Of a stretch of 37,681 bases of DNA, positions 1,341-19,082 are shown one piece after another. The notes under the pieces are model-generated. The model had not been told where the DNA came from. It saw only the letters and a list, made by a program, of their open reading frames with translations, and did not search any database. The position numbers were made by a program, and so were the translations under genes. How positions within the stretch are numbered: position 1 is the stretch's first letter; every line of letters starts with the position of its first letter. The stretch is from Deltaproteobacteria bacterium (GTDB lineage: Bacteria; Myxococcota_A; UBA796; JAFGLY01), in NCBI GenBank assembly GCA_016927815.1, contig JAFGLY010000014.1, forward strand, positions 1 to 37,681, in the 5' to 3' direction.

Positions 1341-1467
1341 GCATGCTCCAGGGGCGGACGCAGGAAGCCTACCGGTATCCATCGGCCCCGAGGAAGGAAA
1401 GCGGTGCGGCTCCAGGATCGGCCCGCGGCACGGGTTAGGTGCCTCCACCGACATCCGAGGACCTCCC

Positions 1468-4386
1468 ATGGCCCAGATCGGCTCCTGGTTCTCCCGCGTG
1501 TTCTCCGCTGACGCCACCCGGGGACTCTCGGGCGACAGCGACTTCCTCGCAGGCGAGGGAGGGTCGTTCTACGCATCGCGCCTCCGCCTCCACACGTCGG
1601 AGGGCGACCCCGTGGCCGATCCCCTTCTCCTGTGGGATCCCAGCCGAGCCCGAAAGCAACGCTTCGGGCTGCATGCCCACCTGCTGGCCGACCGTGGCGA
1701 CGGGGTGGCCCGCTTCACGGACATCCTCGTGGTGCTCGCCGCGGAAGACTGGGACCGTGCGGTCAGCGAGGGGGGCCAGGCGTCGCTGGACAGGGTGCGG
1801 GACGTGCTCACGGCAGAGGTGATGCAGTTCTGCGTCCAGCACTCCTTCAACCCCATCTTTCCGGACCGCCCGTTCGGGATCAGCCTCGTGCGCGATGGCG
1901 CTCCCCAGCTCCATGGCCACCGCATCGGGCTGATCGCGGGCCAGTTCGTGACCGGTCTTCTTCCCAACTACTACCGGGGGCCCATCGAGACCTCCTCCCC
2001 CACCCTCGCGGTCCACCTGAACCTGCCGGGGCAGTGGGAGGGATACCGCCAGGTGGGCGTGGTGCACGGCGACCAGTTCCACTACACCCTCGGCTCCCAC
2101 TGGCTCGACTCGTTCCGCAACGCCGCGTTCCCCGGCCCGGCGCTCTACCAGCTCCAGCAGCAGCCCGACGGCTCCCTGGTCCACGTGGTGAATCCCGACT
2201 TCCAGGATCAGTACGAGGTCGGGACCGTGCGGACCTCGGATGGCCCGGCGGTGCTGGCCATCGCGGCCCGGAACGGCGGCACACCCGTGGCCTGGATCGT
2301 CCTCGCCGTGGCCAGCCGGAAGGTCCCCGCGCACCAGGCTGCCGCGGAACAGGGCCCGACCCCTCGTAGCCGGCGCCGAGATGGTTCCTCGGACGTCAGC
2401 AGCACGTCGCGCTCCCGGTCGAGCCCGCGGACCCGGCCGCCCCCCGACGCCGACGTCCCCACCACGCCGGCATCCTCACCCGGCGTCGTCCCCCCGGCCA
2501 TGGCCACGCAGCCGCTCCCCCCCGAGCCGGTCGCCTCGAAGGCCCGAACGGCGGCGGGCCGGGAGTCCGACCCGGCTTCGGGCCCACCGGTTCCAGCCCC
2601 CGTGGCGCCGACAGCGAGGGAGGCGCCCGCGGCCCGATCGGCCTCCGTCCAGATCGCGGGCGAGGCTCCGTCGTCCAAGCCAGGTGCGTGGCAGCGCACG
2701 ATCGTGCCCGAGGCCATCGAGGAGCGAATCTTCACCCTCAAGGAGCGCGGGGCGCTGCTCCAGCGCGTCCATTTCGCCCAGTTCATGGAAGGCTACGACG
2801 TCTTCGTGAGCCGCACGGGCCAGCTGGGGACTGCCATCCCCGATCCGGTGGCGATCTTCCAGGTCCGCGAGGACCGGGTCTTCTTCCTCGCGCAGGTGGA
2901 GGGCGTGCGCCTCGCGGGGCGTCCGCTCCAGCCGGATCGGTTGATTCCCCTGCGGGGCGTCGTCGAGATCGAGGCTGGAGGGCAGACGTTCGAGTACCGG
3001 GAGCTGGCGGGGGTGCCTGCCGAGGGCTGGCCGTTCCTCGGAGAGATCCGCCGGCCTGCCTCGTCCGCCTACATGGTGTTCGGCGGAAGCTACCGCATCG
3101 GTCGCGATCGGAAGTGCAAGGTGCGGCTGCCGGACGAGCCCCACAACGACAACATCGTCTGGCGGATGGACCTGGACGAGGGAGACGTCATCCGCTCCCG
3201 GGCGGGGGACATCCCCAAGAGCCGCTTCTACAACGACTCCATCATGGTGGCGTCCGAGCACGCGGAGATCGATCTCACGGGCGAGCCGATCCTGCGCAAC
3301 ATCGCCCGCCACTGCTTCAGCTACGTCCGACGTGGCTCCGAGGTGTTCCCCCTCTTCCCCTCCAGGGGCGAGCCGGGCGAACAGGGCGTCGTGCTCTTCC
3401 CCGGTGACGAGGTGCTCGTCGGGAACAACCTCTTCGAGGTGTCCTTCCCGCCTGCGGAAACGCAACGGGAAGAGGCGCCGGCGCCGGAACCTCGGGACGA
3501 AGGAGAACCCGGAATCCGGCTTCGCCTGCCCGGGCGCGCGACGGCCTCGAGGCCGGAGGAGGAGCCTCCTGCGGCCCACGGACTGGGGGAGGCAGGCCCT
3601 GCGCCGGAACGCCCTCCCTCCAAGCAGGAACTGGACTCGATCCTCGGCACGGACGCGCCACCCCCCGGAGGGATCACCGGTCCTCGCGGCGACGTGGTCG
3701 TCGTGGAGGAGGCGGCCTGTCGCCTGGAACTGTCCCGGCCCGCCCGGCTCCTCCAGGTGGGCTGGATGGTGGCCGGAGACCAGGTGGTGGGCAACCACCT
3801 CGGGGTCGGGATCGCCGTGCCGGAGCTGAGGATCGTGCCCGGGCAGTCGTTCCGCCCTCGCGACTATGCCGGTCTGCAGGTCAGGGGCCCTCGGGGCAGT
3901 GCATGGCTCCTCGACCGGGTGGAGGCCCGCCTGAAGATCCCCGACGAAACCGTCTCGCACACCGAGGAACTGGAGGGCCTCGTCCTGGAGATCGACCGCA
4001 GGGATCCGGACGGCGTGGTGGACTTCACGGTGGTGTTGCGGCTCCTGCTCGAGCCCTGGCTGCCCGACCCGCGTGCACGCCTCCTTGCGCTCGACAGCGA
4101 AGATCGCCTCGTCGCGTCCCTGTTCACGCTCGGCATGCCGCTCAAGGTCGGCCGGGCCCTCACCCTCGGTCCCATCCGGTGCCGCGGCACCTTCGACGGC
4201 CACGACCTCCAGATCAGCGATCACCTCGACTCCTACGCCTTGCCCGATGGTACGTTCCGCCCGTTCCTGCACCGGAGCGGAGACGGCCTGCCCCGGACCG
4301 TGCCCGAGGACGGGTCGCCGATCCGGGTGGCTCCGGGAGATCACCTCGTCGCGGGGAACGCCGTCTTCCGGTTCCTGGTGGACTGA
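1468..4386 (+). CDS. Large cytoplasmic FHA-domain protein
   Basis: The product has 972 residues. Three parts can be seen. An N-terminal globular region (1-300) has no family I recognise. A low-complexity Pro/Ser/Arg linker covers about 300-410. An atypical FHA domain sits near 530-660, with YRIGRDRKC (GR core near 545) and SEHAEI near 596; the usual S-x-x-H is thus S-E-H, and insertions of about 30 residues stretch the fold. A C-terminal beta-rich region (750-972) ends in GDHLVAGNAVFRF, the kind of strand that closes FHA domains, so it may be a second degenerate FHA. There is no signal peptide or membrane helix. ATG 1468 has GAGG 8 bases upstream. It is divergent from the DUF1015 gene (127 bases apart) and 41 bases ahead of a PP2C phosphatase, so it is a likely phosphothreonine-dependent scaffold or client of the nearby kinase. 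Confidence 0.75.
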   Translation: MAQIGSWFSRVFSADATRGLSGDSDFLAGEGGSFYASRLRLHTSEGDPVADPLLLWDPSRARKQRFGLHAHLLADRGDGVARFTDILVVLAAEDWDRAVSEGGQASLDRVRDVLTAEVMQFCVQHSFNPIFPDRPFGISLVRDGAPQLHGHRIGLIAGQFVTGLLPNYYRGPIETSSPTLAVHLNLPGQWEGYRQVGVVHGDQFHYTLGSHWLDSFRNAAFPGPALYQLQQQPDGSLVHVVNPDFQDQYEVGTVRTSDGPAVLAIAARNGGTPVAWIVLAVASRKVPAHQAAAEQGPTPRSRRRDGSSDVSSTSRSRSSPRTRPPPDADVPTTPASSPGVVPPAMATQPLPPEPVASKARTAAGRESDPASGPPVPAPVAPTAREAPAARSASVQIAGEAPSSKPGAWQRTIVPEAIEERIFTLKERGALLQRVHFAQFMEGYDVFVSRTGQLGTAIPDPVAIFQVREDRVFFLAQVEGVRLAGRPLQPDRLIPLRGVVEIEAGGQTFEYRELAGVPAEGWPFLGEIRRPASSAYMVFGGSYRIGRDRKCKVRLPDEPHNDNIVWRMDLDEGDVIRSRAGDIPKSRFYNDSIMVASEHAEIDLTGEPILRNIARHCFSYVRRGSEVFPLFPSRGEPGEQGVVLFPGDEVLVGNNLFEVSFPPAETQREEAPAPEPRDEGEPGIRLRLPGRATASRPEEEPPAAHGLGEAGPAPERPPSKQELDSILGTDAPPPGGITGPRGDVVVVEEAACRLELSRPARLLQVGWMVAGDQVVGNHLGVGIAVPELRIVPGQSFRPRDYAGLQVRGPRGSAWLLDRVEARLKIPDETVSHTEELEGLVLEIDRRDPDGVVDFTVVLRLLLEPWLPDPRARLLALDSEDRLVASLFTLGMPLKVGRALTLGPIRCRGTFDGHDLQISDHLDSYALPDGTFRPFLHRSGDGLPRTVPEDGSPIRVAPGDHLVAGNAVFRFLVD

Positions 4387-5316: not shown

Positions 5317-6906
5317 CTACGGGTCCACCCGCACCCGCACCGTCACCGCCACGGCGCGGGTCCGCGGCAGCGAGGTGCCGGAGAGGCGGGACACGACGCA
5401 GGCCGATACGGCGGCAGGCAGCGCCTGGACGGGACGGGCGGAGCGTACCCGGCCATCTGCCTCCAGGACGAGATCCACCTGCACCGGGGCCGTGAGGCCG
5501 CAGGCCGCGGCGATGCCCAGGGAGGGGATCGCCGTCTGGATCGCCCCCCCGTCCTCCGAGGCGGCCGCGGCCTCTACGGCCGCCGCGCTCTGCGGCGGCG
5601 AGACGGAGCGGGGAACGGTCGGAACCGGAGTGCCTCGAGAGATGAGCCACGGAAGCGTGGAAAACGAGCCCGACCGGTACCCGCCGACCGCGACCAGGCC
5701 GACACCGGCACACGCGATGGAGAGGAGGGCGAGGATCGCGAGTGCGGCCAGCAGGACCCGCCGGCGCGGAGGAGCGGCCCGAGCCGGTGCCGGCGATGGG
5801 TCGGCGTCGCTGGCGGACCGGACGGGGGGGCCCGAGGTCCACGTGGACAGGGGCGTGCCCGGCCCGGCCGTGTCTCCAAGGGACCCCGGCTCCTGCCTGG
5901 GGCGTGGAATGCCGCTCTCGACGGCCTCCAGCATGGAGGCCATCTCGCGCGCGGAGCAGCGGGCCTCGGGCTCGACCGCCATGGCGGACGAGAGGGCCTC
6001 CTCGAGGGCCAGCACCAGGGCGGGTGGGCCGTCCGGTCGGCGAAGTCGGGCCGGCAGGCGCTGGATCAGCAGGTCGCGGGCATCCTCCGGGTCGAGGCGG
6101 CTCGCCATGGGAAGGAGCGGCTGGCCCTGGAGGCAGAACCACATCAGGGCGCCGGCTGCGAAGACATCGGTGGCCCGGGAGGGGGGGAGCCCCTCGAACT
6201 GCTCAGGTGCGGCGTACTGGGGCGTTCCCAGGAAGGAACCGGCCCGGGTCAGCGTGTCGCCGAACGAGGTGGCCACCTTGGCGATCCCGAAGTCCGCCAC
6301 CCGGACCACGGGCGTCCGACCGGGCTCGGGCAGGGCTTCCAGGAGCACGTTCTCGGGCTTGAGGTCGCGGTGGATGACTCCGACCTGGTGGGCCCGTTCC
6401 AGGGCTTCGAGCACCTGCCGGACCGTCCCCGCTGCCTCCCTGAGCCCCAAGAGCCCATGCTGCCGGACGTAGTCGTGGAGGCTGCCCCCGTGCTCGAAGC
6501 GCGTCACGAGGTAGGGCGGCTCGCCCGTCCTGTGCACGAAGCCCCGGTAGACCACGATGTGCGGATGATCGAGCTCCTGCAGGATCTGGGCCTCCTGGGA
6601 CAACCGTCGCAGGTAGGCCCCGTGGTCGCGGCTGGCCCACAGGACCTTCACCGCCAGCTCGGGCCCGTCTTCCGTGCCGTCGGATGCGATCTCTCGAACC
6701 AGGTAGGTGATCCCGGCGCCTCCGGTGGCGAGACGCCGGATCACCCGGTAGCGGCGATCGATGATCTCGCCTGCCTCGTACAGCGCACCCCAACCCCCTT
6801 CGGGGCGGCGCTCCTGGCAGGCGAGATTGGGACAGCTCTCGAGGTCCCCGACGAAGGTGCTCAGGCAGCGCCCACAGTACCAGGAGCGCTGGGCGGGGTC
6901 TGCCAT
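5317..6906 (-). CDS. Membrane Hanks-type Ser/Thr kinase with Cys4 N-terminus and TonB/AgmX-like tail
   Basis: The 529-residue product starts with a likely zinc ribbon (Cys11-x2-Cys14 and Cys25-x4-Cys30). The kinase domain (about 50-330) has glycine loop ATGGAGITYL, Lys87 in AVKVLW, HRDLKPEN with catalytic Asp181, DFG at 205-207, and APE at 233-235, so it looks catalytically competent. A proline-rich linker leads to one membrane helix (about 384-409). The outer tail ends in a beta-rich stretch with a conserved Cys (about 450-529) that resembles TonB-C/AgmX-PglI C-terminal domains; this last match is tentative. ATG 6906 is chosen because GGAGG lies about 5 bases upstream; a GTG at 6924 lacks one. 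It lies 31 bases after serC and converges with the phosphatase. Probable substrates are the Thr-containing partners of the FHA proteins in this window. Confidence 0.9.
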   Translation of the reverse strand: MADPAQRSWYCGRCLSTFVGDLESCPNLACQERRPEGGWGALYEAGEIIDRRYRVIRRLATGGAGITYLVREIASDGTEDGPELAVKVLWASRDHGAYLRRLSQEAQILQELDHPHIVVYRGFVHRTGEPPYLVTRFEHGGSLHDYVRQHGLLGLREAAGTVRQVLEALERAHQVGVIHRDLKPENVLLEALPEPGRTPVVRVADFGIAKVATSFGDTLTRAGSFLGTPQYAAPEQFEGLPPSRATDVFAAGALMWFCLQGQPLLPMASRLDPEDARDLLIQRLPARLRRPDGPPALVLALEEALSSAMAVEPEARCSAREMASMLEAVESGIPRPRQEPGSLGDTAGPGTPLSTWTSGPPVRSASDADPSPAPARAAPPRRRVLLAALAILALLSIACAGVGLVAVGGYRSGSFSTLPWLISRGTPVPTVPRSVSPPQSAAAVEAAAASEDGGAIQTAIPSLGIAAACGLTAPVQVDLVLEADGRVRSARPVQALPAAVSACVVSRLSGTSLPRTRAVAVTVRVRVDP

Positions 6907-8050: not shown

Positions 8051-9004
8051 TCAGGGATTGACGCAGTTCGAGGCTTCGCCCGTGTCCAGGAACGTGCGGA
8101 TGATGCGGACGGCCTCCTTGGCGACCGCGTCCTGGGCCTGCTCGGTGGAAGCTCCGATGTGGTGGGTGCCGTAGACGCCGGGCAGGGCCGCGACGTCGTC
8201 GGCGAAGACCGTGTCGTTGGCCGCGGGCTCGGTCCAGTACACGTCCAGGCCCACACGGATCCGCTTGGTCTGGACGGCCCGAACGAGGGCGGCCTTGTCC
8301 ACGATCTCGGCCCGGGAGGTGTTGACCAGCATGGCGCCTGGCTTGAGCGCATCGATCACGGCCTCGTTCACGAGATTGCGGGTGGCAGGCACGAGCGCGA
8401 GGTGGATGGTGACCGCGTCGGCCGCGGCGGCGACCTCGAGGGCCGTCTCCATCTTGGAGCAGCCGGGTGCGGCATCGGCCGGCACGAAGGGGTCCCAGTA
8501 GATCACGTTCATGCCCATGGCCTGGGCGATGTGGGCCACCTCGCGGCCGATGTTGCCCAGACCCAGGCAGCCCAGCGTGCGGCCGCGCAGGCCTTCAGCC
8601 TTGGAGTACTCCTTCTTGGCCCACTTTCCGGCCTTCAGGTCGGCCACGTTGTCGCAGATCCGGCGGTCGAGCGCGACGAGGAAGCCGATGGTGAGTTCGG
8701 CCACGGCGGACGAGTTCTTGCCGGGGCAGTTGGTGACCTTCACGCCCCGGGTCGTGGCCTTCGCCACGTCGATGGTGTTCACGCCCGCGCCGGCACGCAC
8801 GATCATCTTCAGGGCGTTCCCGGCATCGATCTGCTCGGCCTGCACCTTCGTGGAGCGAACCACCACGACGGTGGGATCGTGAGCGCGCATCGCCTCGGTG
8901 AGGGTCGGGCCGTCGAGCGAAGGATCGGTGTGGACCGTGCAACCGGCCTCCTCGAGGGATCGGGAGAACCATGCGGGGACCTTGTCGGCGATGAGGACCT
9001 TCAC
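8051..9004 (-). CDS. serA: D-3-phosphoglycerate dehydrogenase, short form
   Basis: This 317-residue NAD-dependent 2-hydroxyacid dehydrogenase would oxidise 3-phosphoglycerate to 3-phosphohydroxypyruvate. The NAD motif GLGNIG is at 148-153, followed by an acidic-type switch region. The catalytic triad is Arg231 (NTSRAEIVD), Glu259 (DVYWTEPA) and His282 (THHIGAST). VRAGAGVNTID near 69-79 is the substrate-loop signature. The protein ends shortly after the substrate domain, so the ACT and ASB regulatory domains of long SerA forms are absent and feedback by serine through ACT is not expected. GTG 9004 has AGGAG 7 bases upstream. The assignment to SerA rather than another hydroxyacid dehydrogenase rests largely on the serC neighbour. 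Confidence 0.92.
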   Translation of the reverse strand: MKVLIADKVPAWFSRSLEEAGCTVHTDPSLDGPTLTEAMRAHDPTVVVVRSTKVQAEQIDAGNALKMIVRAGAGVNTIDVAKATTRGVKVTNCPGKNSSAVAELTIGFLVALDRRICDNVADLKAGKWAKKEYSKAEGLRGRTLGCLGLGNIGREVAHIAQAMGMNVIYWDPFVPADAAPGCSKMETALEVAAAADAVTIHLALVPATRNLVNEAVIDALKPGAMLVNTSRAEIVDKAALVRAVQTKRIRVGLDVYWTEPAANDTVFADDVAALPGVYGTHHIGASTEQAQDAVAKEAVRIIRTFLDTGEASNCVNP

Positions 9005-9140
9005 GGCGGACTCCTGGTTGGGGCTGAAATGCCCGGGCAGCAGACCCCTAATCTGGCTCCGGTTGCCCGGCTCCCCGATCCACGCCAGCGAGGCGGCCGA
9101 TATCCCCGGCGGCGATCGGTCCGGCTACGTTGGGTGGGTC

Positions 9141-10118
9141 ATGTACCCGATCGTGTACCTCTCGGCTGCTGCCTGCCCGGACCGGGGCGACGAACGCCCA
9201 GTCATGGCGCTCGGCACCTTTGACGGCGTCCACCGTGGGCACCAGGCCCTGCTCGGCCGTCTCGTGGCGCACGCGCGGGCCCTGGGGCGCCCCGCCCTCG
9301 TGTTCACGTTCCATCCCTCTCCGTCCGCGGTGCTCGGCCGCGGCGATCCCAGGGCCATCCTGCCCCTCGAGGAGCGGATCCGCCTTCTCGGGGAGTTCGG
9401 GGTGGACCGGGTGGTCGTGGAGCGGTTCTCGCAGGCCTACGCCGTACGGTCCGCCCGCTGGTTCGCTCGGGAGGTCCTGGGTCGGCTCGTCCGCCCGGCC
9501 GCCCTGGTGGTGGGCCGCGACTTCCGTTTCGGGCACCAGGGCGCGGGTGGGGTGGAGAGCCTGGCCGAGTGGATGCCCGACCTGGAGGTGGAGGTGGTGG
9601 AGGCGTGCCTGGAGCAGGACCTCCCGGTGTCCTCCTCCCGCATCCGGAAGGCCCTCGCGGCCGGCCGGGTGGCCGAGGTCGCGACGCTCCTGGGTCGGCC
9701 GTGGGCGGTGACCGGAACCGTGAGCCCGGGCCAGGGTCTCGGCCGGCGCCTCGGGTTCCCCACGGCCAACCTCGTGCACGACGCCGACCTGCTCCCGGCC
9801 GACGGTGTCTACGCGGTCCGGGCCCGGGTGGACGGGGGTGCGCCCGAACCCGCGGTGGCCAGCCTGGGAACCCGTCCCACCTTCGACGGCGAGGGCTTCG
9901 TCCTGGAGGTGCACCTGCTCCGGGATCCGGAGGGCCCGTCCGAGGACGCCCTGTACGGCACACCGGTCGAGATCGGGTTCGTGGACCGGATCCGGGACCA
10001 GGAGCGGTTCCGGGACGCGTCGGCGCTCGTCCGAGCCATCCGCAAGGACACCGAGCAGGCTCGGCGGATCCTCGCTCCGGAGGGCCCTTGCGCGGCCGGA
10101 ACCGGACGGAGAACATGA
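9141..10118 (+). CDS. ribF: Bifunctional riboflavin kinase / FAD synthetase
   Basis: The 325-residue protein makes FMN from riboflavin and ATP and then FAD. The N-terminal nucleotidyltransferase domain carries GTFDGVHRGH (25-34) and the SSSRIRKAL motif (about 164-172). The C-terminal flavokinase domain (about 180-310) has GLGRRLGFPTANL (near 198-211) and the acidic catalytic segment around DGEGFVLEVHLL. The length fits the family (about 310-330). ATG 9141 follows a weak GGTGGG; a TACGTT hexamer ends 9 bases before it, so the message may have a very short leader. The stop overlaps the next start (ATGA at 10115-10118), which ties translation of ribF to that of tadC. Confidence 0.95.
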   Translation: MYPIVYLSAAACPDRGDERPVMALGTFDGVHRGHQALLGRLVAHARALGRPALVFTFHPSPSAVLGRGDPRAILPLEERIRLLGEFGVDRVVVERFSQAYAVRSARWFAREVLGRLVRPAALVVGRDFRFGHQGAGGVESLAEWMPDLEVEVVEACLEQDLPVSSSRIRKALAAGRVAEVATLLGRPWAVTGTVSPGQGLGRRLGFPTANLVHDADLLPADGVYAVRARVDGGAPEPAVASLGTRPTFDGEGFVLEVHLLRDPEGPSEDALYGTPVEIGFVDRIRDQERFRDASALVRAIRKDTEQARRILAPEGPCAAGTGRRT

Positions 10119-11029
10119 CCTCCATCCTGTCCGCCGTTCTGCTGGGGGTCTTCATGGCCGCCGTGTTCGTGGCCGTGTGGGCCATGCAGCCCAGGGACGC
10201 CCGTCGGCGGGTGGAGGCGCGGCTCGGCCTCCAGGGCGTAGAGGCCCGACACTCCAGCCCGGTCGCGGAGGGGATGCGGCCGCTGCTCCGCCTGCTGGTC
10301 CCACTGGTGCGGGGTATCGGACAGGCCGGCTACCGGGAGCGCATCGAGCACCGGTTCGTGACCGCCGGCATGACGGGCGCCATGACCGGAGACGAGTTCC
10401 TGGCCTGCAAGGTCGTGATGGCGGTGTTCTCCTGGATCCTGATCGTCGGCATCGGCGGCGGGGTCGTCTTGCACGGGCCCGTGCCGCTCGCCGTTCACCT
10501 GCTGGTACCAGGGATCGGAGCCTTCCTTCCGGACCTCTGGCTCGAGGCCGAGGTACGGCGCCGGCAGGACGGGATCCGCCGCGCCCTCCCCTACGTGATG
10601 GATCTCCTCACGCTGTCGGTGGAAGCGGGCCTGGACTTCGTGGCCGGCCTGCACAAGGTCTGCGAGAAGGCGCATCCAGGGCCACTCGTCGAGGAACTCT
10701 CCTTCTTTCTGAAAGAGATGCAGGTGGGTGCGTCCCGCCAGCAGGCCCTCCGGAGCCTGGCCCGCCGCTGCGCCATGCCGGAGATCTCGTCGTTTTCGGC
10801 GTTGCTCGTCCAGGCGGATCACCTGGGTGCGAGCATCGGCCCCGTGCTTCGGGCCCAGGCCGACCTGATCCGCACGCAGCGGCACCAGCGTGCGGAGCGG
10901 GCAGGTGCCTATGCCTCACAGAAGATCCTCTTCCCCCTCATCTTCTGCATCATGCCCGCCGTGTTCGTCATCGTGTTCGGCCCAATCGCGCTGAACTTCC
11001 TCTATGGGAAGGGGGTGCTGGGTGGCTAG
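10115..11029 (+). CDS. TadC-like type II secretion F-domain membrane protein
   Basis: The 304-residue inner-membrane protein has an N-terminal helix (about 4-23), a pair of helices around 105-150, a cytoplasmic T2SSF domain (about 165-290) with MDLLTLSVEAGLDF and EMQVGASRQQALRSLARR, and a last helix near 270-298. This layout is that of TadC, the inner-membrane platform subunit of Tad/Flp pili, which pairs with TadB and the ATPase TadA. None of the other core Tad genes (secretin RcpA/CpaC, TadA/CpaF, TadB, prepilin, peptidase) is visible here, so this copy is an orphan or the Tad locus is split. It overlaps ribF by 4 bases and the DUF192 gene by 8 bases. The FHA genes behind it suggest phospho-regulation of the platform. 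Confidence 0.85.
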   Translation: MTSILSAVLLGVFMAAVFVAVWAMQPRDARRRVEARLGLQGVEARHSSPVAEGMRPLLRLLVPLVRGIGQAGYRERIEHRFVTAGMTGAMTGDEFLACKVVMAVFSWILIVGIGGGVVLHGPVPLAVHLLVPGIGAFLPDLWLEAEVRRRQDGIRRALPYVMDLLTLSVEAGLDFVAGLHKVCEKAHPGPLVEELSFFLKEMQVGASRQQALRSLARRCAMPEISSFSALLVQADHLGASIGPVLRAQADLIRTQRHQRAERAGAYASQKILFPLIFCIMPAVFVIVFGPIALNFLYGKGVLGG

Positions 11030-11402
11030 CCCGGTGCGCGTGATGAACCGCACCCGCTCGACCATCCTGGCCGCTCGGGCCTCCCGTGTGGACAAGGTCT
11101 GGGGACGGATGCGGGGCCTCCTGGGAGCGCCTCCCCTCGCACCGGGGGAGGGGATGATCCTCGACCCTTGTCGCTCGGTCCACACCTTCTTCCTAGGATA
11201 TTCCATCGACGTGGTGTTCGTCGCCCGCGACGGGCGGGTCGTGGGGATCGTCCCGGGACTTCGACCCTGGCGGTTGTCTGGCTGGTTCGGGGACGCCCGG
11301 GCTGCGGTGGAGTTGCCGTCCGGGACGACGGCCACCACCGGCACGGTCGCGGGCGACCTGTTGGGGCTGGAGCCCCTGGACGGATCATGCAGCTCGTCGT
11401 GA
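11022..11402 (+). CDS. DUF192 family protein
   Basis: The product is about 126 residues and matches the DUF192/COG1430 pattern: KVWGRMRGLLG, then GEGMILDPCRSVHTFFL, SIDVVFVARDGRVVGI and the closing ARAAVELPSG. The family is a small beta-barrel of unknown biochemical function. Many members are exported, but this one shows no signal peptide. GTG 11022, inside the end of tadC and 7 bases after AAGGGGG, is preferred; ATG 11004 and ATG 11043 are in-frame alternatives. DUF192 genes near Tad/type IV pilus genes are, as far as I recall, common in deltaproteobacteria. It overlaps the next gene by 16 bases. Confidence 0.85.
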   Translation: MASPVRVMNRTRSTILAARASRVDKVWGRMRGLLGAPPLAPGEGMILDPCRSVHTFFLGYSIDVVFVARDGRVVGIVPGLRPWRLSGWFGDARAAVELPSGTTATTGTVAGDLLGLEPLDGSCSSS

Positions 11403-12964
11403 TCGAGGGAGGGCCGCCGGGGGAGGTCATCCCGATCAGGGAGGGCACCTCTGGGGTGGGCCGGCACCCCTCGAGCGCCATCTGCCTCCCGTCCGCCCAC
11501 GTGAGCGCCGAGCACTGTGTGTTCCTCGCCGGTCCCGAGGGGCTGTCCATACGCGATCTCAACTCCACCAACGGCGTCTGGGTCGACGATCAGCGCGTCC
11601 TGGAGGCCCGACTCCCCCACGGGGCCCGGGTTCGGATCGGGGACTGGCTCTTCGCCGTGGATCTCGGCGCTCCGCTTCCCCCACCGGTTGCGGGAACGGG
11701 CTTCGGGCGCTCTCCCCCGCGCGCCGAGCCGCAGCCGGGGACCGACAAGCCTTCTCTCGACCCGCATCCGGCGCCCCCAGCGCCGGATCCACCCCGCCTC
11801 CCGCGGACGGCCTCCGACGAGATCACCACCGTGTCCCGCCCGCTGCACCCCTCGGCCGATCCGGGAAGCCGTCGGTCGTGGATCGCGTATGCGAGGCGCC
11901 TCGAGGAACGCATGGGACGATGGCCCTGGAACCTCCGGCTGGCCGGCGTGTTCGTGCTGGCGGGGCTGCTCCTGGTCCTGGCGCCCGGAGGGGGGCTGCT
12001 CGCCCAGGTGGCCCACGTCTCGGACGTGGCCGAGGCCGGGTCCGTGGAGCGCGCCCGCGCACTCGCGCTCGCGCTGGCGGCCCAGAACGCGCCGGCGTTC
12101 CAGGATCGGAACCAGCTCAGGCTGGACGTGTCCATCGTGAAGGACCTGCCCGGCGTCCGCCAGGCGTATCTCACCGACACCCGAGGGGCGGTGCGGGCCC
12201 CCGTCGAGACCTTGGGGCGCTCCATCGCGGGCACGGCGTCCTTCGACGAAGCGATCGAGCGCGGCACGGTCACGGCTGTGAAGGCGGGGAGAGGGAGGTG
12301 GACCGTCCTGGCCCCCATCCGTGCGCGCCCCGTGGAGGGGGCGCCCGCCCGGATCGAGGGATGGGCCTGCCTGGACTACGACGCCCGGGCGGCCATCGCC
12401 GGGTCCGACCCACGAGACAGGCGCGTCCCGGCTGCGGTCCTGGTGATCGTCCTCGCGCTGGGCGGCGCGTTCGTCCTGACCCGGCGCCTGATCGCGCGGC
12501 CTCTGGCCACGCTGGGCGAGGATCTCGAACTGGCCCTGGTGGGCCACGCCACCACGGTGGGCGTCCCCCGGGCCTGGGCGCAGGCGGAAGACCTGGCCCG
12601 CTCGGTCAATCGCCTCCTGCGTCGCTGGCACGACGCCCTGGCTGAGGGCGAAGGCATCGAGACAGCGGTCGCGCGGCTGCCGATTCCCTTCTTCGTCGCT
12701 GACGCCAGCGGCCGTGTACGGGGTGCGAGCCCGGCGGGATGCCGTTGGCTGGGGCTCCCCCGGGAGGACCTGGTGGGCCGGGATCTCGCCCGACTCCTGC
12801 CGGACGGGGCCCTCACGGTGGCGTGGACCGCCGCCGTCGAGCAGGCGGCGCGGAGGCATCCCGCGCCGTGGGCGGAGGTGGTGCGCCTGGGCTCCGGCAC
12901 GGCCACGGTGCGGGTTCTCGGGGGAGATCCGACGGGCCCGCTCCTGCTCGTCCTGGTGGAGTAG
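11387..12964 (+). CDS. FHA - membrane sensor - HAMP - PAS protein without output domain
   Basis: The 525-residue protein begins with a canonical FHA domain (1-92: GRHPSS at 25-30, SAEH at 40-43, STNG at 60-63). A Pro-rich linker leads to a first membrane helix (about 184-204), an outer domain of about 140 residues, a second helix (about 346-366), a HAMP-like coiled segment (366-420) and a PAS-like domain starting IPFFVADASGRVRG. It then stops. Histidine-kinase, GGDEF and phosphatase domains, the usual partners of such sensors, are absent. The design suggests that an external or membrane signal is passed to the cytoplasmic FHA and PAS parts, which act by binding a partner. ATG 11387 lies inside the DUF192 gene. 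The next gene starts 3 bases after its stop. Confidence 0.8.
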   Translation: MQLVVIEGGPPGEVIPIREGTSGVGRHPSSAICLPSAHVSAEHCVFLAGPEGLSIRDLNSTNGVWVDDQRVLEARLPHGARVRIGDWLFAVDLGAPLPPPVAGTGFGRSPPRAEPQPGTDKPSLDPHPAPPAPDPPRLPRTASDEITTVSRPLHPSADPGSRRSWIAYARRLEERMGRWPWNLRLAGVFVLAGLLLVLAPGGGLLAQVAHVSDVAEAGSVERARALALALAAQNAPAFQDRNQLRLDVSIVKDLPGVRQAYLTDTRGAVRAPVETLGRSIAGTASFDEAIERGTVTAVKAGRGRWTVLAPIRARPVEGAPARIEGWACLDYDARAAIAGSDPRDRRVPAAVLVIVLALGGAFVLTRRLIARPLATLGEDLELALVGHATTVGVPRAWAQAEDLARSVNRLLRRWHDALAEGEGIETAVARLPIPFFVADASGRVRGASPAGCRWLGLPREDLVGRDLARLLPDGALTVAWTAAVEQAARRHPAPWAEVVRLGSGTATVRVLGGDPTGPLLLVLVE

Positions 12965-12967
12965 CCC

Positions 12968-13924
12968 GTGCCCCTCCCCGTCCTCGTCGGCATCTCCGGG
13001 CAGGTGCGCGGCCTGGTCTGGACGGTGCCACCCCGAGGCCTTCGCATCGGACGGCAGCGGGGGAACCAGATTCGGATCGATGACGCAGGGGTATCCAGGC
13101 AGCACGCCCGGATCGTGTTGCACGAGGGAGCCTTGTGGATCCAGGACCTGGGTTCGCGGAACGGGGTCTTCGTGAACGAGGCGCCGGTCGTCGGCCAGCA
13201 GCGGCTTGCGTCGGGCGACCGCATCGTCCTCGGGGATCACGTCCTGGAGCTCCGCCCACCCGCCAGCTCCGGTTCCCCCGCATCCTCGGCGGCACCGGCC
13301 GAGACGCGTGCACCCTCTCCCCCGCCTGCACCGCCGCCCGCGTCGGGTCGCTGGCGCGGATGGCCCTTCGTCCTCACGGGTGGGGGCATCCTGCTCCTGG
13401 TGCTCTGGGTCGTGGGGTTCGGCCAGGAGCAGGTCCGATCCCCCGCACGGCATCCACCCGACTCGGTGGCCGACCTGCTGCGTTCCACGTCGGAACCGGA
13501 GCCGGAACGACCGATCGGGATCGGTGGGGTCGTCCGGGACGATGCCCCCCCTGGTCCGGCCGAAGAGGTCCTGCCTCCGCCCGAGGATGCCCTCTCCTCT
13601 GCGGAGTGGGTGGAGCGTGGGCACCAGCACTATGCCTCCGGACAGCTCCACGAGGCTCTCTCGGCCTACACTCGGGCCCGTGCTAAGGATCCCGCCTGCG
13701 AGATCTGTCTCCGCCGCATCGAGCGCCTCGAGCGCGAGATCGACCAGGCCATCGCCGATCGGTTCGACGCCGGCCTGAGCGCCTGGGACGACTTGCAGTA
13801 CGAACAGGCCGTTCGCGCCTGGGAGGCCGTGCTCCTCCTGTCTCCCGATCCCGGCAGTCGGGCCAACCGGGAAGCCCGGGTCTACCTCCAGGAGGCCGAG
13901 AGGAAGCTGAAGCCGGAGTTCTGA
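12968..13924 (+). CDS. FHA - transmembrane - TPR-like protein
   Basis: The 318-residue protein has an N-terminal FHA domain (1-97) with all binding residues: GRQRGN (28-33), SRQH (43-46) and SRNG (63-66). A Pro/Ala/Ser linker is followed by one membrane helix (about 132-152) and an acidic linker. The C-terminus (about 205-318) has TPR-like helices: the segment WVERGHQHYASGQLHEALS, then a second pair with YEQAVRAWEAVLLLSPDPG. The FHA would face the cytoplasm and the TPR the periplasm. GTG 12968 starts 3 bases after the previous stop. It has the same architecture as the next gene but only one FHA, so the two may be ancient duplicates working together. Confidence 0.85.
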   Translation: MPLPVLVGISGQVRGLVWTVPPRGLRIGRQRGNQIRIDDAGVSRQHARIVLHEGALWIQDLGSRNGVFVNEAPVVGQQRLASGDRIVLGDHVLELRPPASSGSPASSAAPAETRAPSPPPAPPPASGRWRGWPFVLTGGGILLLVLWVVGFGQEQVRSPARHPPDSVADLLRSTSEPEPERPIGIGGVVRDDAPPGPAEEVLPPPEDALSSAEWVERGHQHYASGQLHEALSAYTRARAKDPACEICLRRIERLEREIDQAIADRFDAGLSAWDDLQYEQAVRAWEAVLLLSPDPGSRANREARVYLQEAERKLKPEF

Positions 13925-13987
13925 GCTCTGCATCTCCGTTCGCCCGGTGGCCGGGGGGTTCGTGGTGCGCCGGATCGAGCGTAGGAT

Positions 13988-13993
13988 TAGGGT
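13988..13993 (+). promoter_or_regulatory. TAGGGT -10-like hexamer before the double-FHA gene
   Basis: TAGGGT fits the TAnnnT pattern of a -10 box and lies 23 bases before the ATG at 14017, in the 92-base gap between two FHA genes. I see no convincing -35 hexamer 16-18 bases upstream, so this is weak. Confidence 0.3.
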
Positions 13994-14016
13994 GCACGAC
14001 GGAGGATGCCCGCCCG

Positions 14017-16239
14017 ATGGCCGGCCGCCGAATAGAGATTCTCGTCCGACGCGAGGGACAACCCGAACGTCGGGTCACACTCGAGCAGGGCACCTACCTG
14101 GTGGGTCGGGCTGAAGACAGTGCGCTGGTGCTTCCCGATATCGCGGTTTCTCGCAGGCATGCTCGCATCACGGTCACACTTGCCCATGTCCTGGTGGAGG
14201 ACATCGGCTCCAGCAACGGCACCTACGTCCGCGGGCGTCCCATCCGCCGACAGGAGGTCGCGGACGCGGACGAGGTCTTGATCGACCCCTTCGTCCTGGT
14301 CTTCTCCGTGCCGCCCGCACCGGACCTTCCCGAGGATGCCCACCCCGTGGAGGCCGGACCTCGGCTGGACGTGCTGGCCGGCCCGGGCATGCGGGCGACC
14401 TACCCCCTCTCCGGTATCGGGCTCACGCTGGGCCGGTCCGAGCAGCGCGACGTGGTCCTGGCGGACCCGGCGGCCTCGCGCCGGCACGCCGAGGTCTTCC
14501 AGCAGGACGGTCGCTGGTACCTGCGCGACTTCGGCAGCATCAACGGTACCTGGGTGAACGACCAGAGAATCCGGGAACACGCCCTGCAGGACGGCGACCG
14601 CATCCGGATCGGAAGCGTGGAGATGCGGTTCGTGGACCCTGCACCCGGCAGCGTGGCGCCCAGTCCCAGGCCCCTGGCCAGTGTCGTGTTCACGGATCCG
14701 GCGCTCGGCCGACCGGGCGGGGGTGCCCAGCTTCCCCCTGGGGCCGTGGTCCCGCCGACCGCGGTGGCGCTCGGGATCGCCGAGCCGCCCATCACGTCCA
14801 CGCCCCTGCCCTTGAGGCCGTCTCCGGCCGCCGGGGGCTCGGAGGCCTCCGGCGTGCCCGACGGGCTTCAACCCACCGCGGCCATTCCGAGGGCCGCCAT
14901 CCTCGCGGGTGCCGTGGTGGCACCGGGCAGCGGTTCGGTACCGGGGGACGACACCCGGCCCGAGATCGGCTCCGACCCCCTGCCGTTCTTCCAGGCACCG
15001 ACCGCTCCACCCCCGGACACGGATCCGGGAGAGCCGCCCTCCACGCGCCCGGCCACGTACCCCTCCGGTGCGGGGGGCGGCACCGGAGAGGCCACGATCG
15101 CGAATCTCCGAGGCGGCAGAACGGGGGATCGTGCCGGTCAAACCTCCTTCCGAACGGGTGAGCATGGCCCGTCCATGGACCGGACCATCCGGAGGCTCAC
15201 CATCGGGATCGGGGTCTTGGCCGCGCTGCTCATCGCGTACAAGGTCATCCGGGACGCGCAGGAAGGATCGAACCCGACGATCTCCCCTCCGGGCGCGTTC
15301 GCGACCCGAGGAGAGTCCCCCGAAGCCCCATCCTCCGACAACGCGGTCGTCGGCGATCTCATCGAGCAGGGAGACCGGCTCTTCCGGGAAAAGAGGTACG
15401 TCGAGGCCATCGAGCGGTACGCGGCCGTGCAGAACCTGGATCCCCAGAACGCCAGGGCCGTGAAGATGGGCTACCACGCGTGCGAGTTCCTGGTGATCCG
15501 CACGCTCAGGGAGGAGGTCGCCCGGCGGTCCACGAGCCAGAACCAGCGGCGTGCTGCCTACGAACAGGCGGTGGCCGAGGCCAGGGCCGCACTCGCGGGT
15601 ACGGGGCCCGAAACGGCCGACGCCATCGAGGACCTCGAGACCATCCGGTCGTTCTTCCCCGAAGACGCCGTGCTCCTGGAACTCCTGGACCAGCTCCACG
15701 CCACCCGGCGCGGCGACGTGGAGGCCCAGCGCCGCCAGGAGCAGGAGACCCTCGCCTCCGGCGCCTCCGATCGATTCGCCTCGGCCGAGAAGCTCGAGAA
15801 AGACGGCGATCTTCTGGCAGCCATCCGGGCCTACGAGGCGGTGCTGGCAGCGGACCCCCACCGTCGGACCGCCTTCCCTGCCCGGGCCGAGGAGCGGATC
15901 CGTGTCGCCAAGGCCACGCTCGCCGCGCGGGGCCAGGATGCCCTCCGCCAGGGACTGGGCGCCCTGGAGGTGGGGGATCCGCTCACCGCGCGGAGCCGGT
16001 TCCGGGAGTGCCTCGAGCAGGACCCCTACAACGCCGTCGCCGCGCGCCGTCTGAAGGAGGTCCAGGACACGCTCGATCGGAGTGCGCAGACGTACTGGAT
16101 GGAGGCCGAGGTCTACGAGCGATCCGATCAGCTCGAACTCGCGATCGCCCGATACCACAAGGTCATCGAGGTCAGTGCCTCCAGCGCCGCGCCGCTCGCC
16201 CAGAAGGCCAAGGTGCGGATCGATGCGCTGCTCCAGTAG
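14017..16239 (+). CDS. Double-FHA - transmembrane - TPR protein
   Basis: The 740-residue protein has two canonical FHA domains: FHA1 (about 5-98) with VGRAEDS, SRRH and SSNG, and FHA2 (about 115-212) with LGRSEQRD, SRRH and SING. A long Pro/Gly-rich linker (about 215-388) leads to one membrane helix (about 389-411). The outer C-terminus (about 445-740) is helical with TPR-like pairs such as EQGDRLFREKRYVEAIERY and DGDLLAAIRAYEAVLAADP. Two FHA domains on one chain can bridge two phosphothreonine sites or one doubly phosphorylated partner. It follows a 92-base gap that holds a TAGGGT hexamer at 13988-13993, so it may also have its own promoter. GGAGG lies 11 bases before the ATG. It overlaps the HEAT gene by 17 bases. 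Confidence 0.87.
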   Translation: MAGRRIEILVRREGQPERRVTLEQGTYLVGRAEDSALVLPDIAVSRRHARITVTLAHVLVEDIGSSNGTYVRGRPIRRQEVADADEVLIDPFVLVFSVPPAPDLPEDAHPVEAGPRLDVLAGPGMRATYPLSGIGLTLGRSEQRDVVLADPAASRRHAEVFQQDGRWYLRDFGSINGTWVNDQRIREHALQDGDRIRIGSVEMRFVDPAPGSVAPSPRPLASVVFTDPALGRPGGGAQLPPGAVVPPTAVALGIAEPPITSTPLPLRPSPAAGGSEASGVPDGLQPTAAIPRAAILAGAVVAPGSGSVPGDDTRPEIGSDPLPFFQAPTAPPPDTDPGEPPSTRPATYPSGAGGGTGEATIANLRGGRTGDRAGQTSFRTGEHGPSMDRTIRRLTIGIGVLAALLIAYKVIRDAQEGSNPTISPPGAFATRGESPEAPSSDNAVVGDLIEQGDRLFREKRYVEAIERYAAVQNLDPQNARAVKMGYHACEFLVIRTLREEVARRSTSQNQRRAAYEQAVAEARAALAGTGPETADAIEDLETIRSFFPEDAVLLELLDQLHATRRGDVEAQRRQEQETLASGASDRFASAEKLEKDGDLLAAIRAYEAVLAADPHRRTAFPARAEERIRVAKATLAARGQDALRQGLGALEVGDPLTARSRFRECLEQDPYNAVAARRLKEVQDTLDRSAQTYWMEAEVYERSDQLELAIARYHKVIEVSASSAAPLAQKAKVRIDALLQ

Positions 16240-17395
16240 CGTTGCGGCGCTCCTCGGGGCGCTCGCGTATTCGGGATGCCTCGGCCACGGGCCCGCCACA
16301 CCCGGGGAGGGGTCGATCGAGGCGCAGGCGTCGTGGGAGGTGCCCCTCGGTGTGCTCGGTGCGGGCGCGGAGGACCTGGACGTCGAGATCCGTTCGAAGG
16401 CCCTCGCCTGCCTCGTGCGCCGCGCACCCGAGCCGGGTGGCGGCACCTGGACCGCCAGGGCGCTGTGGGATCCCAGCCCGTACGTGCGGCGCGCCGCCAT
16501 CCGGGCCCTGGCTCGCCGCCTGGAGGAGACCGAGGCCCGGGATGCCCTGGCCTCGGTGGTGGGACGAGCCGACGTGGACCCCTACACCCGGGGCCTTGCC
16601 GGGACGGTCCTCGCGGACGCGGGCGACAAGCGCGTCGCGGGCGTGCTGTCCGAGGCGTGGCGCACGGCCTCTGCCCCGTGGCAGGCGGCACCTCTGGCGC
16701 TCGCCGCAGCCCGCATGGGAGACCCGCAGGCACCCGCCGCCGTGGCCCGTGCGCTCGAGGGAGGCGAGTTCCCCCTGGAGGTCTCCTTCTTCCTCTCGAT
16801 CGGCCGAAGCGGGCTGTCGGGCCTCGCGCCCGCCCTCGTAGAGGCGGCGGCCAGCGTCGAGGAGGACCTCCTCCTCCCGGTCGCGGCCGCCCTGGTGGGT
16901 CTGGGTGCGCCCGAGGGCGAGGCGCTCTTCGACCAGGCGCTCTCCGGGTCGGAGGACCAGCAGATGGAGGCGCTCGACATCCTCGCGTTTCTCCCGGGCG
17001 ATGTGGCCCGACGTCTCGTGCGCTCGGCTGCGCGTGGGGACGGTCACCCGGCCCGCTACGCCCGACTCCTGCGCGTCGGCTGGCAGGAGACGTCCTCCAA
17101 GGAGGCCGTGCGAGCGGCGGTCGACCCGGATCGAGAAATCCGCAGCCTCGCGATCCAGGCCCTCGGACGCGCACTTCACTCCTCTTCCAGGGACGACCGG
17201 GCCCATGGTGCGCTCGTGCAGGCGTTGTCCGATCCCGAGCCCGTGGTGCGCCTGGAGGCGATCCGGTCGCTGGGACGCATCGGACACCCCGAGGACCGGG
17301 ACCTGTTCCTCCCGTTCCTCGCGTCGGGCTCGGGCAGGCCGGACCTGTTCGAGATCGAGGCGGCGAGTGCGATCCTCTGCCCCGGTCCGCCCTGA
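16223..17395 (+). CDS. HEAT-repeat protein, probable lipoprotein
   Basis: The 390-residue product begins with a short hydrophobic signal ending in AYSGC (Cys19); the position before the cysteine fits a lipobox, although the -3 residue is Tyr rather than Leu, so lipidation is likely but not certain. The rest is a series of helical repeats with the HEAT/PBS-lyase signature, for example PSPYVRRAAIRALARRLEE, DREIRSLAIQALGRAL and PEPVVRLEAIRSLGRIG. Such repeats form a protein-binding solenoid and have no enzymatic role by themselves. ATG 16223 overlaps the double-FHA gene. As the last gene of the operon it may be the outer partner of the TPR regions. It converges on the UbiB gene with 19 bases between stops. 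Confidence 0.82.
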   Translation: MRCSSSVAALLGALAYSGCLGHGPATPGEGSIEAQASWEVPLGVLGAGAEDLDVEIRSKALACLVRRAPEPGGGTWTARALWDPSPYVRRAAIRALARRLEETEARDALASVVGRADVDPYTRGLAGTVLADAGDKRVAGVLSEAWRTASAPWQAAPLALAAARMGDPQAPAAVARALEGGEFPLEVSFFLSIGRSGLSGLAPALVEAAASVEEDLLLPVAAALVGLGAPEGEALFDQALSGSEDQQMEALDILAFLPGDVARRLVRSAARGDGHPARYARLLRVGWQETSSKEAVRAAVDPDREIRSLAIQALGRALHSSSRDDRAHGALVQALSDPEPVVRLEAIRSLGRIGHPEDRDLFLPFLASGSGRPDLFEIEAASAILCPGPP

Positions 17396-17414
17396 CCGGG
17401 CCCGCGCAAGGGGG

Positions 17415-19082
17415 CTACCGGTTTCGATTCAGGAAGAGCAGGATCAAGGTCCAGAGCCAGAAGACGCCGGAGGATCCGAACAGGATCCACGACACCCAGG
17501 GTACGCCCAGAACCGCTGGGCCCTGCTGCTGCAGGGCGATGCTGCCGGCGATGAGCGAGGCCACCGACATGGCCAGGACGAGGGTCTGGACGTGCCTCAA
17601 GTTCCGGGCCCTCTGGGCTTCGGGCGGGTACCGGTGGAGGATCTCGACACGCAGGCGCTGGTCTTGCAGATCGTCCAGGACCTGGGAGACCGCTCCGGGG
17701 AGACGCCGCAGGAGCGTGCGGAGGGACACCAGCGAGTAGAAGGTCTCCTCCTGGATCCGCGCCGGCCGGAATCGTTCCTTCACGAGGGCATCGATCCAGG
17801 GTCGGGCGGCGGCGACCGGATCCACCTCGGGCAGGAGCGCGCGCGCGAGCCCCTCCGTGGTGAGCAGCGCCCGGAACAGGACCGTGTAGTTGGCCGGTGC
17901 CCGGATCCGGTGGCGGATCGCGCCGTCCGCGAGCTGCTTGAGAAACCGACCCACGTCCACGTCCTGGAGCGCCCGATCCACCCAGTGACGCTCCATCACG
18001 TCGGTCACGTCTCGCTCGAAGGCGTCGTAGTCCACGCGCGCCGTCTTGGTGCCCAGGTCGTAGTAGATCCGGGCGATGCTGCGGAAGTCCCCGCGTTCGA
18101 GGGCGAACAGGATCGCGACCAGGTTGTCCTTCATCTCGGGCGTGAGCCGGCCGGCGTTCCCGAAATCGAGCAGGCCCAGCGCGCCTCCGGGCAGGACGAG
18201 CACGTTGCCCGGGTGCAGGTCCGCGTGGAAGAACCCGTGCTCGAAGACCATCTGGTACGCGGCGGAGAGGAAGGCTCGGCCGACGGCCTCCATGTCCACG
18301 CCCTCAGCCCGGGCGTCCCGGATCCGGTAGCCACGGATCCGCTCCATGACGAGCACTTCTGAGGTGGACAGCTCCGGGAGGACCTCGGGGATGTACACCT
18401 CTGCCCGACCCTCGAAGTTGGATCGGAACCGCCGGATGTTGGCCGCCTCGATCGAGAGATCCGTCTCTTCCAGGACGGAGCGCTCGAACTCCTTGAGGAT
18501 GCCCTTGGGATCGAAGAACACCGCCTCCGGGAACTCCACGAGGATCCGCTGGGCCAGCAGGTTCAGGACCACCAGGTCGGACCGGATCCGGTCCCGCACG
18601 TGGGGCCGGAGCACCTTGACCACCACCTCCCGACCCTCGACGGTGCCGGCCGCGTGGACCTGGGCCACACTGCCGGTGGCCAGCGGCACCTCCTCCAGGT
18701 CCCGGATCCGCTCGGACCAGTCCGCACCCAGGGAGTGCTCGATCTGGGTCCGGATGGCCGGGTACGGCTCGGGTGCGACATCGTCCTGGAGTCGGGACAG
18801 GGCCTGGATGTAGGCCATGGGCAGCACGTCCACCCGCGTGGAGAGCGCCTGCCCGAACTTCACGAACGTGGGTCCCAGCTCCTGGATGGCCGCCACGAGG
18901 CGCTCCGGGGTGGTCTCCCGGGTGCCCGACGGTGCCCGGAAACCGGCGATGGGAAGACCCTGCACCACGAACCCCAGCCCGTGTCGCACGAGCACCGAGG
19001 CCACCTCCTTGATGCGGTTCAGGTCCCGCACCGTGTGCTGCAGGCTCATGGTGGTGCGGACGACGGGGCGGACGATGCGCAT
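17415..19082 (-). CDS. ABC1/UbiB (AarF) family atypical kinase
   Basis: The 555-residue protein has the features of the UbiB/Coq8 family, ATP-binding proteins tied to ubiquinone and lipid metabolism. KxGQ is at 75-78 (KFGQ). The P-loop-like segment is ATGSVAQVH (135-143), where Gly-Ser replaces the usual alanine-rich loop. Lys156 (VVVKVLRP), EETDLSIEAANI (205-216), HADLHPGN (287-293, catalytic Asp288 and Asn293) and LDFG (305-308) follow. Two hydrophobic helices at the C-terminus anchor it in the membrane. ATG 19082 is chosen; ATG 19049 is possible, and neither has a clear ribosome-binding site. It is 118 bases downstream of the nitroreductase gene on the same strand and probably shares its operon. 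Confidence 0.9.
   Translation of the reverse strand: MRIVRPVVRTTMSLQHTVRDLNRIKEVASVLVRHGLGFVVQGLPIAGFRAPSGTRETTPERLVAAIQELGPTFVKFGQALSTRVDVLPMAYIQALSRLQDDVAPEPYPAIRTQIEHSLGADWSERIRDLEEVPLATGSVAQVHAAGTVEGREVVVKVLRPHVRDRIRSDLVVLNLLAQRILVEFPEAVFFDPKGILKEFERSVLEETDLSIEAANIRRFRSNFEGRAEVYIPEVLPELSTSEVLVMERIRGYRIRDARAEGVDMEAVGRAFLSAAYQMVFEHGFFHADLHPGNVLVLPGGALGLLDFGNAGRLTPEMKDNLVAILFALERGDFRSIARIYYDLGTKTARVDYDAFERDVTDVMERHWVDRALQDVDVGRFLKQLADGAIRHRIRAPANYTVLFRALLTTEGLARALLPEVDPVAAARPWIDALVKERFRPARIQEETFYSLVSLRTLLRRLPGAVSQVLDDLQDQRLRVEILHRYPPEAQRARNLRHVQTLVLAMSVASLIAGSIALQQQGPAVLGVPWVSWILFGSSGVFWLWTLILLFLNRNR

Follow-up and report, generated by a model that had tools for sequence, protein, structure and literature searches.

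The closest described counterparts of the locus studied here come from Bdellovibrio bacteriovorus and Myxococcus xanthus. In B. bacteriovorus, Bd0470, a TadC, to Bd0475 are encoded in one operon, in which Bd0474 has the architecture FHA-FHA-TM-TPR (PMC6561027, PMC12034629). Insertion mutants of Bd0470 and Bd0474 lost prey killing and were complemented, and Bd0470 was handled as a type IVb pilus gene in this predation screen (PMC6561027); Bd0474 is also known to bind the TPR protein Bd0075 (PMC12034629). The Bdellovibrio tad locus, bd0109-0119, has been described with TadA, TadB, RcpA, and RcpC (PMC5430801). In M. xanthus, the Kil Tad system is encoded in two clusters, includes many FHA proteins, and assembles on contact with prey (PMC8460266, PMC12075869). 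FHA proteins are suspected to take part in the contact triggering of both the Kil and the Bdellovibrio Tad pili (PMC8460266).

The window, by which we mean the whole stretch of 37,681 nucleotides that was analysed (70% G+C), lies on contig C79 of an assembly (G000) of 3.99 Mb in 216 contigs, 97% complete, from an uncultivated lineage. Reading frames and Pfam searches confirmed six genes in the order and with the domains given by the sequence-only reading, all on the forward strand. The first encodes TadC, the inner-membrane platform half, of the Kil/Bdellovibrio-type clade (10115..11029; T2SSF, 2.6e-16), and is followed by genes for a DUF192 protein (11043..11402; Pfam DUF192, 2e-14), an FHA protein with a periplasmic sensor between two TM segments and then HAMP and PAS (11387..12964; Pfam, TM scan, and AlphaFold), an FHA-TM protein with periplasmic TPRs (FHATPR, 12968..13924; FHA 2.2e-19, TPR_2 5.7e-7), an FHA-FHA-TM protein with periplasmic helical/TPR repeats (FHA2, 14017..16239; two FHA domains, 9.3e-39), and an exported HEAT-repeat protein, a probable lipoprotein (16223..17395; HEAT_2, 3.2e-21). 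The genes are as closely coupled as had been described. The frames of RibF and TadC share 4 bp, the DUF192 gene and the first FHA gene overlap by 16 bp, and FHA2 and the HEAT gene overlap by 17 bp; the other junctions are gaps of 13, 3, and 92 bp, the last and loosest of them separating FHATPR from FHA2. Therefore, the operon probably starts at ribF or further upstream, although RibF itself, a riboflavin kinase/FAD synthetase (9141..10118, forward strand; Pfam FAD_syn 5.5e-38, Flavokinase 6e-35), is operon context and lies outside the pilus machinery proper. A promoter and terminator scan of 9000-17700 found neither. At 1222-4386 on the forward strand, the window also has a 1054-aa reading frame whose base composition resembles that of coding DNA and which matches nothing in Pfam or NCBIfam.

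The operon resembles bd0470-bd0475 in that tadC comes first, an FHA protein fourth, and an FHA-FHA-TM-TPR protein fifth, and in that the Bdellovibrio operon is also apart from the tad locus bd0109-0119; this likeness is drawn from published descriptions. When the residue numbers published for Bd0474 were compared with the fetched loci, no locus fitted them. Unlike bd0470-bd0475, the window has RibF in front, and a canonical Tad locus occurs elsewhere in its host. The sixth gene of the window encodes a HEAT protein, whereas the published description of Bd0475 goes no further than a hypothetical protein.

An orphan TadC with 55-67% identity was found in 17 of the 58 genomes of the order, the window's own included, whereas the remaining 41 have only canonical TadCs, at about 30% identity. 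In a comparison of the window TadC with those of 16 relatives, identity was 55-66%. In the whole phylum, the orphan-TadC profile matched 20 of 379 genomes at E <1e-70. Because TadC keeps at least 55% identity and is followed by the same genes in 17 genomes, its occurrence as a lone TadC is, as judged from these comparisons, not due to chance. The expected conservation of gene order holds for RibF-(AroE)-TadC-DUF192-FHA/PAS, which is constant in the fetched neighbourhoods wherever the contig permits a view, but only partly for FHATPR-FHA2-(HEAT), which lies directly downstream in G001, G024, and G010 and has a separate chromosomal location in genus g3 (38 kb off in G037, for instance). On contig C8 of G037 (L089, L099, and L210), a three-way split is seen, with TadA-TadB, TadC-DUF192-FHA/PAS, and FHATPR-FHA2 tens of kb apart.

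The 900-bp gap between ribF and tadC in relatives was considered as a place for TadB; the gene there is shikimate dehydrogenase, AroE, and this candidate was rejected. Families f2 and f5 have AroE at this place (L083, L087, L089, and L093), and f1, to which the window and G001 belong, lacks it. The absence of AroE from these two could mean that a former Tad cluster has broken up and that the operon is what remains of it, decaying and no longer functional. However, the frames are intact, TadC keeps >55% identity across families with long invariant stretches, and the FHA binding residues are kept, so that a leftover is scarcely credible.

When GTDB contigs were scanned with an alignment of this TadC, the best 80 loci came mostly from Bdellovibrionota, Myxococcota, and other former Deltaproteobacteria, with further carriers among Desulfarculales/Desulfonatronum, Schekmanbacteria, and Terriglobia. 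DUF192 is next after the orphan-type TadC in 67 of the 77 loci having enough downstream sequence, and 47 of 57 loci have at least three FHA domains within 7 kb of TadC; we found no literature linking DUF192 with TadC. The full order of tadC, two genes, an FHA protein, and FHA-FHA-TM-TPR is also present in Bdellovibrionota loci. In Bacteriovoracia, the same operon continues after the FHA genes with a PP2C-type phosphatase and a response regulator (L125:15914-18008 and its equivalents), an order that holds in nearly all of about 25 Bacteriovoracia loci, Pfam having been run on a few. Two MAGs titled Klebsiella pneumoniae (CAMAWH01 and CAMBIK01; L107 and L117) carry the operon of the window's order, and their titles look wrong.

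The position of this module relative to tad genes differs between lineages. In Bdellovibrionota and in the window's order, the TadC-DUF192-FHA module is detached from tad genes; in Schekmanbacteria, Terriglobia, Desulfarculales, and Myxococcales, on the other hand, TadC and the FHA genes directly follow TadA and/or TadB. For example, TadA and TadB are directly upstream of the module in L126, L144, L129, and L139, with the module coming after complete Tad loci in L126 and L144, and TadB is directly upstream in L120, L153, L155, L157, and L170. The sequence-only reading had named an adjacent tad locus in relatives as evidence against a new system, and these lineages provide it. In a maximum-likelihood tree, the orphan clade and its Tad-embedded relatives are apart from the canonical TadCs of the order (support 97/94), and the window TadC groups with TadCs of Tad loci. 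The sequence-only reading was right about a conserved unit of TadC and membrane FHA proteins, with FHA domains inside and TPRs outside. It went further and proposed a new, non-pilus system, a self-standing envelope scaffold in which FHA, TPR, and HEAT proteins would arrange a repurposed TadC. The window indeed has no TadA, TadB, secretin, or pilin, and the detached state of the module in two lineages also fits a scaffold. We nevertheless regard it as quite improbable, since the module comes after Tad loci in other phyla, Bd0470 was treated as a pilus gene, and the orphan co-occurs one-to-one with a TadC-less TadA-TadB locus, as described below.

This partner locus in the relatives comprises CpaB, a secretin, a CpaE-TadA fusion, and TadB, and has no TadC of its own. 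Within the order (n=58), the CpaE-TadA fusion is found in all 17 genomes with an orphan TadC, always at a distance from it, as compared to 1 of the 41 without (Fisher p 9e-14, from counts that treat genomes as independent despite shared descent). The exception, G031, has a TadC-less Tad locus and no orphan TadC. Fifteen of the fusion matches are long, with 55-59% identity, and two are truncated (G000 and G042); TadB adjoins CpaE-TadA in 15 relatives. When all T2SSF domains were counted in G002, G048, and G052, each genome had one TadB and one TadC at separate loci, the orphan being the sole TadC and the fusion locus holding the sole TadB. Bdellovibrionota genomes are arranged similarly, with a Tad locus of CpaB-CpaC-CpaE/TadA-TadB and TadC not beside it. 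Six genomes with a detached module (G379, G381, G383, G386, G389, and G391) have a long CpaE-TadA with a single T2SSF protein, TadB, after it and lack a TadC there; the fetched loci of the first five of these have CpaB and other Tad genes upstream.

The host of the window has such a locus as well, and the absence of tad genes, true of the window, does not extend to its genome. Contig C171 carries, at about 52.5-60.4 kb, a prepilin peptidase, CpaB, a secretin, and a CpaE-TadA fusion (Pfam Secretin 7.9e-26, RcpC 2e-24, and Peptidase_A24). Over C171:56651-60442, identity to G001 is 74% for CpaB, 65% for the secretin, and 58% for CpaE-TadA. The secretin, of 471 aa, has a pilus N-terminal domain and a BON domain, and the N-terminus of the ATPase is ParA/MinD-like (CpaE), with no FHA match. 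The fusion gene (58913-60442) runs off the contig end inside TadA, and the TadB of this second locus is not seen in the host assembly because the contig ends first; its pairing with the window TadC is therefore something we infer from the relatives. The Tad locus of G001 also contains pilin-like genes, one of which was run against Pfam and gave no match. A second TadA on C126 or C47 was considered and set aside; the T2SSE matches there looked like PilT, and their surroundings yielded no Tad gene calls.

A complete Tad locus with Flp, CpaB, CpaC, CpaE, TadA, TadB, and TadC is also present in this genome, at C115:14471-21685 (L017/L018 and L214), and the host therefore probably has two Tad systems. 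The C115 locus shares with the window the TadC family and the genome. In contrast to the window, it keeps TadA, TadB, and TadC together, and its TadC is on a different tree branch; no FHA or DUF192 gene was found beside it. Since the only TadB seen in the host assembly is that of C115, the orphan TadC and the FHA proteins might serve the canonical pilus as an alternative or regulatory platform subunit. We consider this improbable, as C115 has its own TadC beside TadB, the canonical TadCs form a separate branch, G048, G052, and G002 have the orphan without a canonical TadB or TadC, and many genomes of the order carry a canonical Tad locus without the orphan.

In Kil, too, the genes of the Tad machine are divided between two clusters and several FHA proteins take part, and the Tad genes of the window host show the same division into separate clusters. 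In Myxococcales genome G398, TadB-TadC and FHA genes are apart from a region with the secretin and an FHA-TadA, a two-cluster plan matching Kil. The Kil system and that of the window host differ in that the ATPase is fused to FHA in the former and to CpaE in the latter, and in that KilG and KilH sit together, whereas TadC is apart from TadB in the window system. Other inner-membrane FHA proteins, SctD/YscD, TagH, and GltG, share the cytoplasmic FHA domain; the matches are weak and at the domain level, with NCBIfam scores of the window proteins far below the family cut-offs. Because the TadC-less locus co-occurs with the orphan TadC, in the host as in its relatives, and Bdellovibrio and Kil follow the same plan, the operon very probably supplies the TadC half and a controlling FHA module to a second Tad (type IVc/Flp) pilus, the genes of which are split.

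The single proteins were compared with their homologues and modelled. The FHA signature in alignments of 34 homologues is Gly-Arg / Ser-x-x-His / Asn-Gly, and the Arg, Ser, and Asn/Gly binding residues are kept across phyla in three of the four FHA domains. In the FHA/PAS protein, G25, R26, S40, H43, N62, and G63 are 82-85% conserved, with some aligned sequences truncated. Conservation is about 100% for R29, S43, H46, and N65 of FHATPR and for the signature of the second FHA domain of FHA2, while in the first FHA domain of FHA2 Arg and Ser reach 91% and Asn is not among the conserved columns. Since the FHA residues are conserved and one lineage has a PP2C gene, phosphothreonine control of the module is plausible, and likely, but indirectly supported. 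The kinase at 5317-6906 of the window was rejected as a partner because its position near the module is not conserved: apart from the nearest relative, kinase matches occur within 10 kb in only 3 of 63 loci outside the order, and no kinase was consistently linked to the module across loci.

Hydropathy gave a single TM segment for each FHA-TPR protein and two for the FHA-HAMP-PAS protein. In the model of the FHA-FHA protein, the pair of FHA domains is joined by a long linker of low confidence to a TM helix (residues 393-411), after which come helical repeats at 440-740. The AlphaFold model of the FHA-HAMP-PAS protein (mean pLDDT 76, >90 in the FHA part) consists of an FHA domain, a TM helix, a small periplasmic alpha/beta domain, a second TM helix, HAMP-like helices, and a PAS fold; neither Pfam nor the model contains an output domain, as had been noted from the window. 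A model of the WalK sensor kinase is the top-ranked PDB match and, among the top matches, the only one covering most of the length. On this model, the protein reads as a sensor-kinase-like receptor with the kinase missing and an FHA domain in front. The HEAT protein is a probable exported lipoprotein, with a borderline lipobox in the window (AYSGC) and a canonical one (LAGC) in the orthologue of the nearest relative. A sequence search of solved structures with TadC and DUF192 as queries gave no match.

In the split pilus that we propose, TadC would pair in the inner membrane with the TadB encoded at the distant locus, which would also supply CpaB, the secretin, and the CpaE-TadA fusion ATPase and, in the relatives, Flp pilins and the prepilin peptidase. 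The three FHA membrane proteins would bind phosphothreonine on cytoplasmic partners, while the periplasmic TPR and sensor parts may anchor the platform to the envelope. Pilus assembly would then take place only when and where a Ser/Thr-phosphorylation signal, presumably set by a kinase and perhaps by contact, is present.

This locus belongs to the Bdellovibrio/Kil kind, which is represented here by an uncultivated lineage. Several points seem to go beyond the literature that we found: the linkage is broad and regular, a DUF192 gene is nearly always included, the CpaE-TadA partner locus lacks TadC, and Bacteriovoracia have a neighbouring PP2C gene. The results name a fixed gene set, tadC, DUF192, and three FHA proteins, with PP2C in one lineage, which is found beyond known predators too; its occurrence in Desulfarculus, among others, speaks against an obligatory tie to predation. 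Tentatively, and with more doubt than for the split pilus itself, such loci might represent a class of phospho-gated Tad pili in several phyla, not confined to predators, in which an inner-membrane FHA assembly forms part of the TadC platform, a DUF192 protein is nearly always included, threonine phosphorylation acts as the on-switch, and an operon-encoded PP2C acts as the off-switch in some lineages. The split arrangement offers an explanation of why TadC seems to be missing from Bdellovibrio-type Tad loci, and a lone TadC call need not signify a partial or repurposed system.
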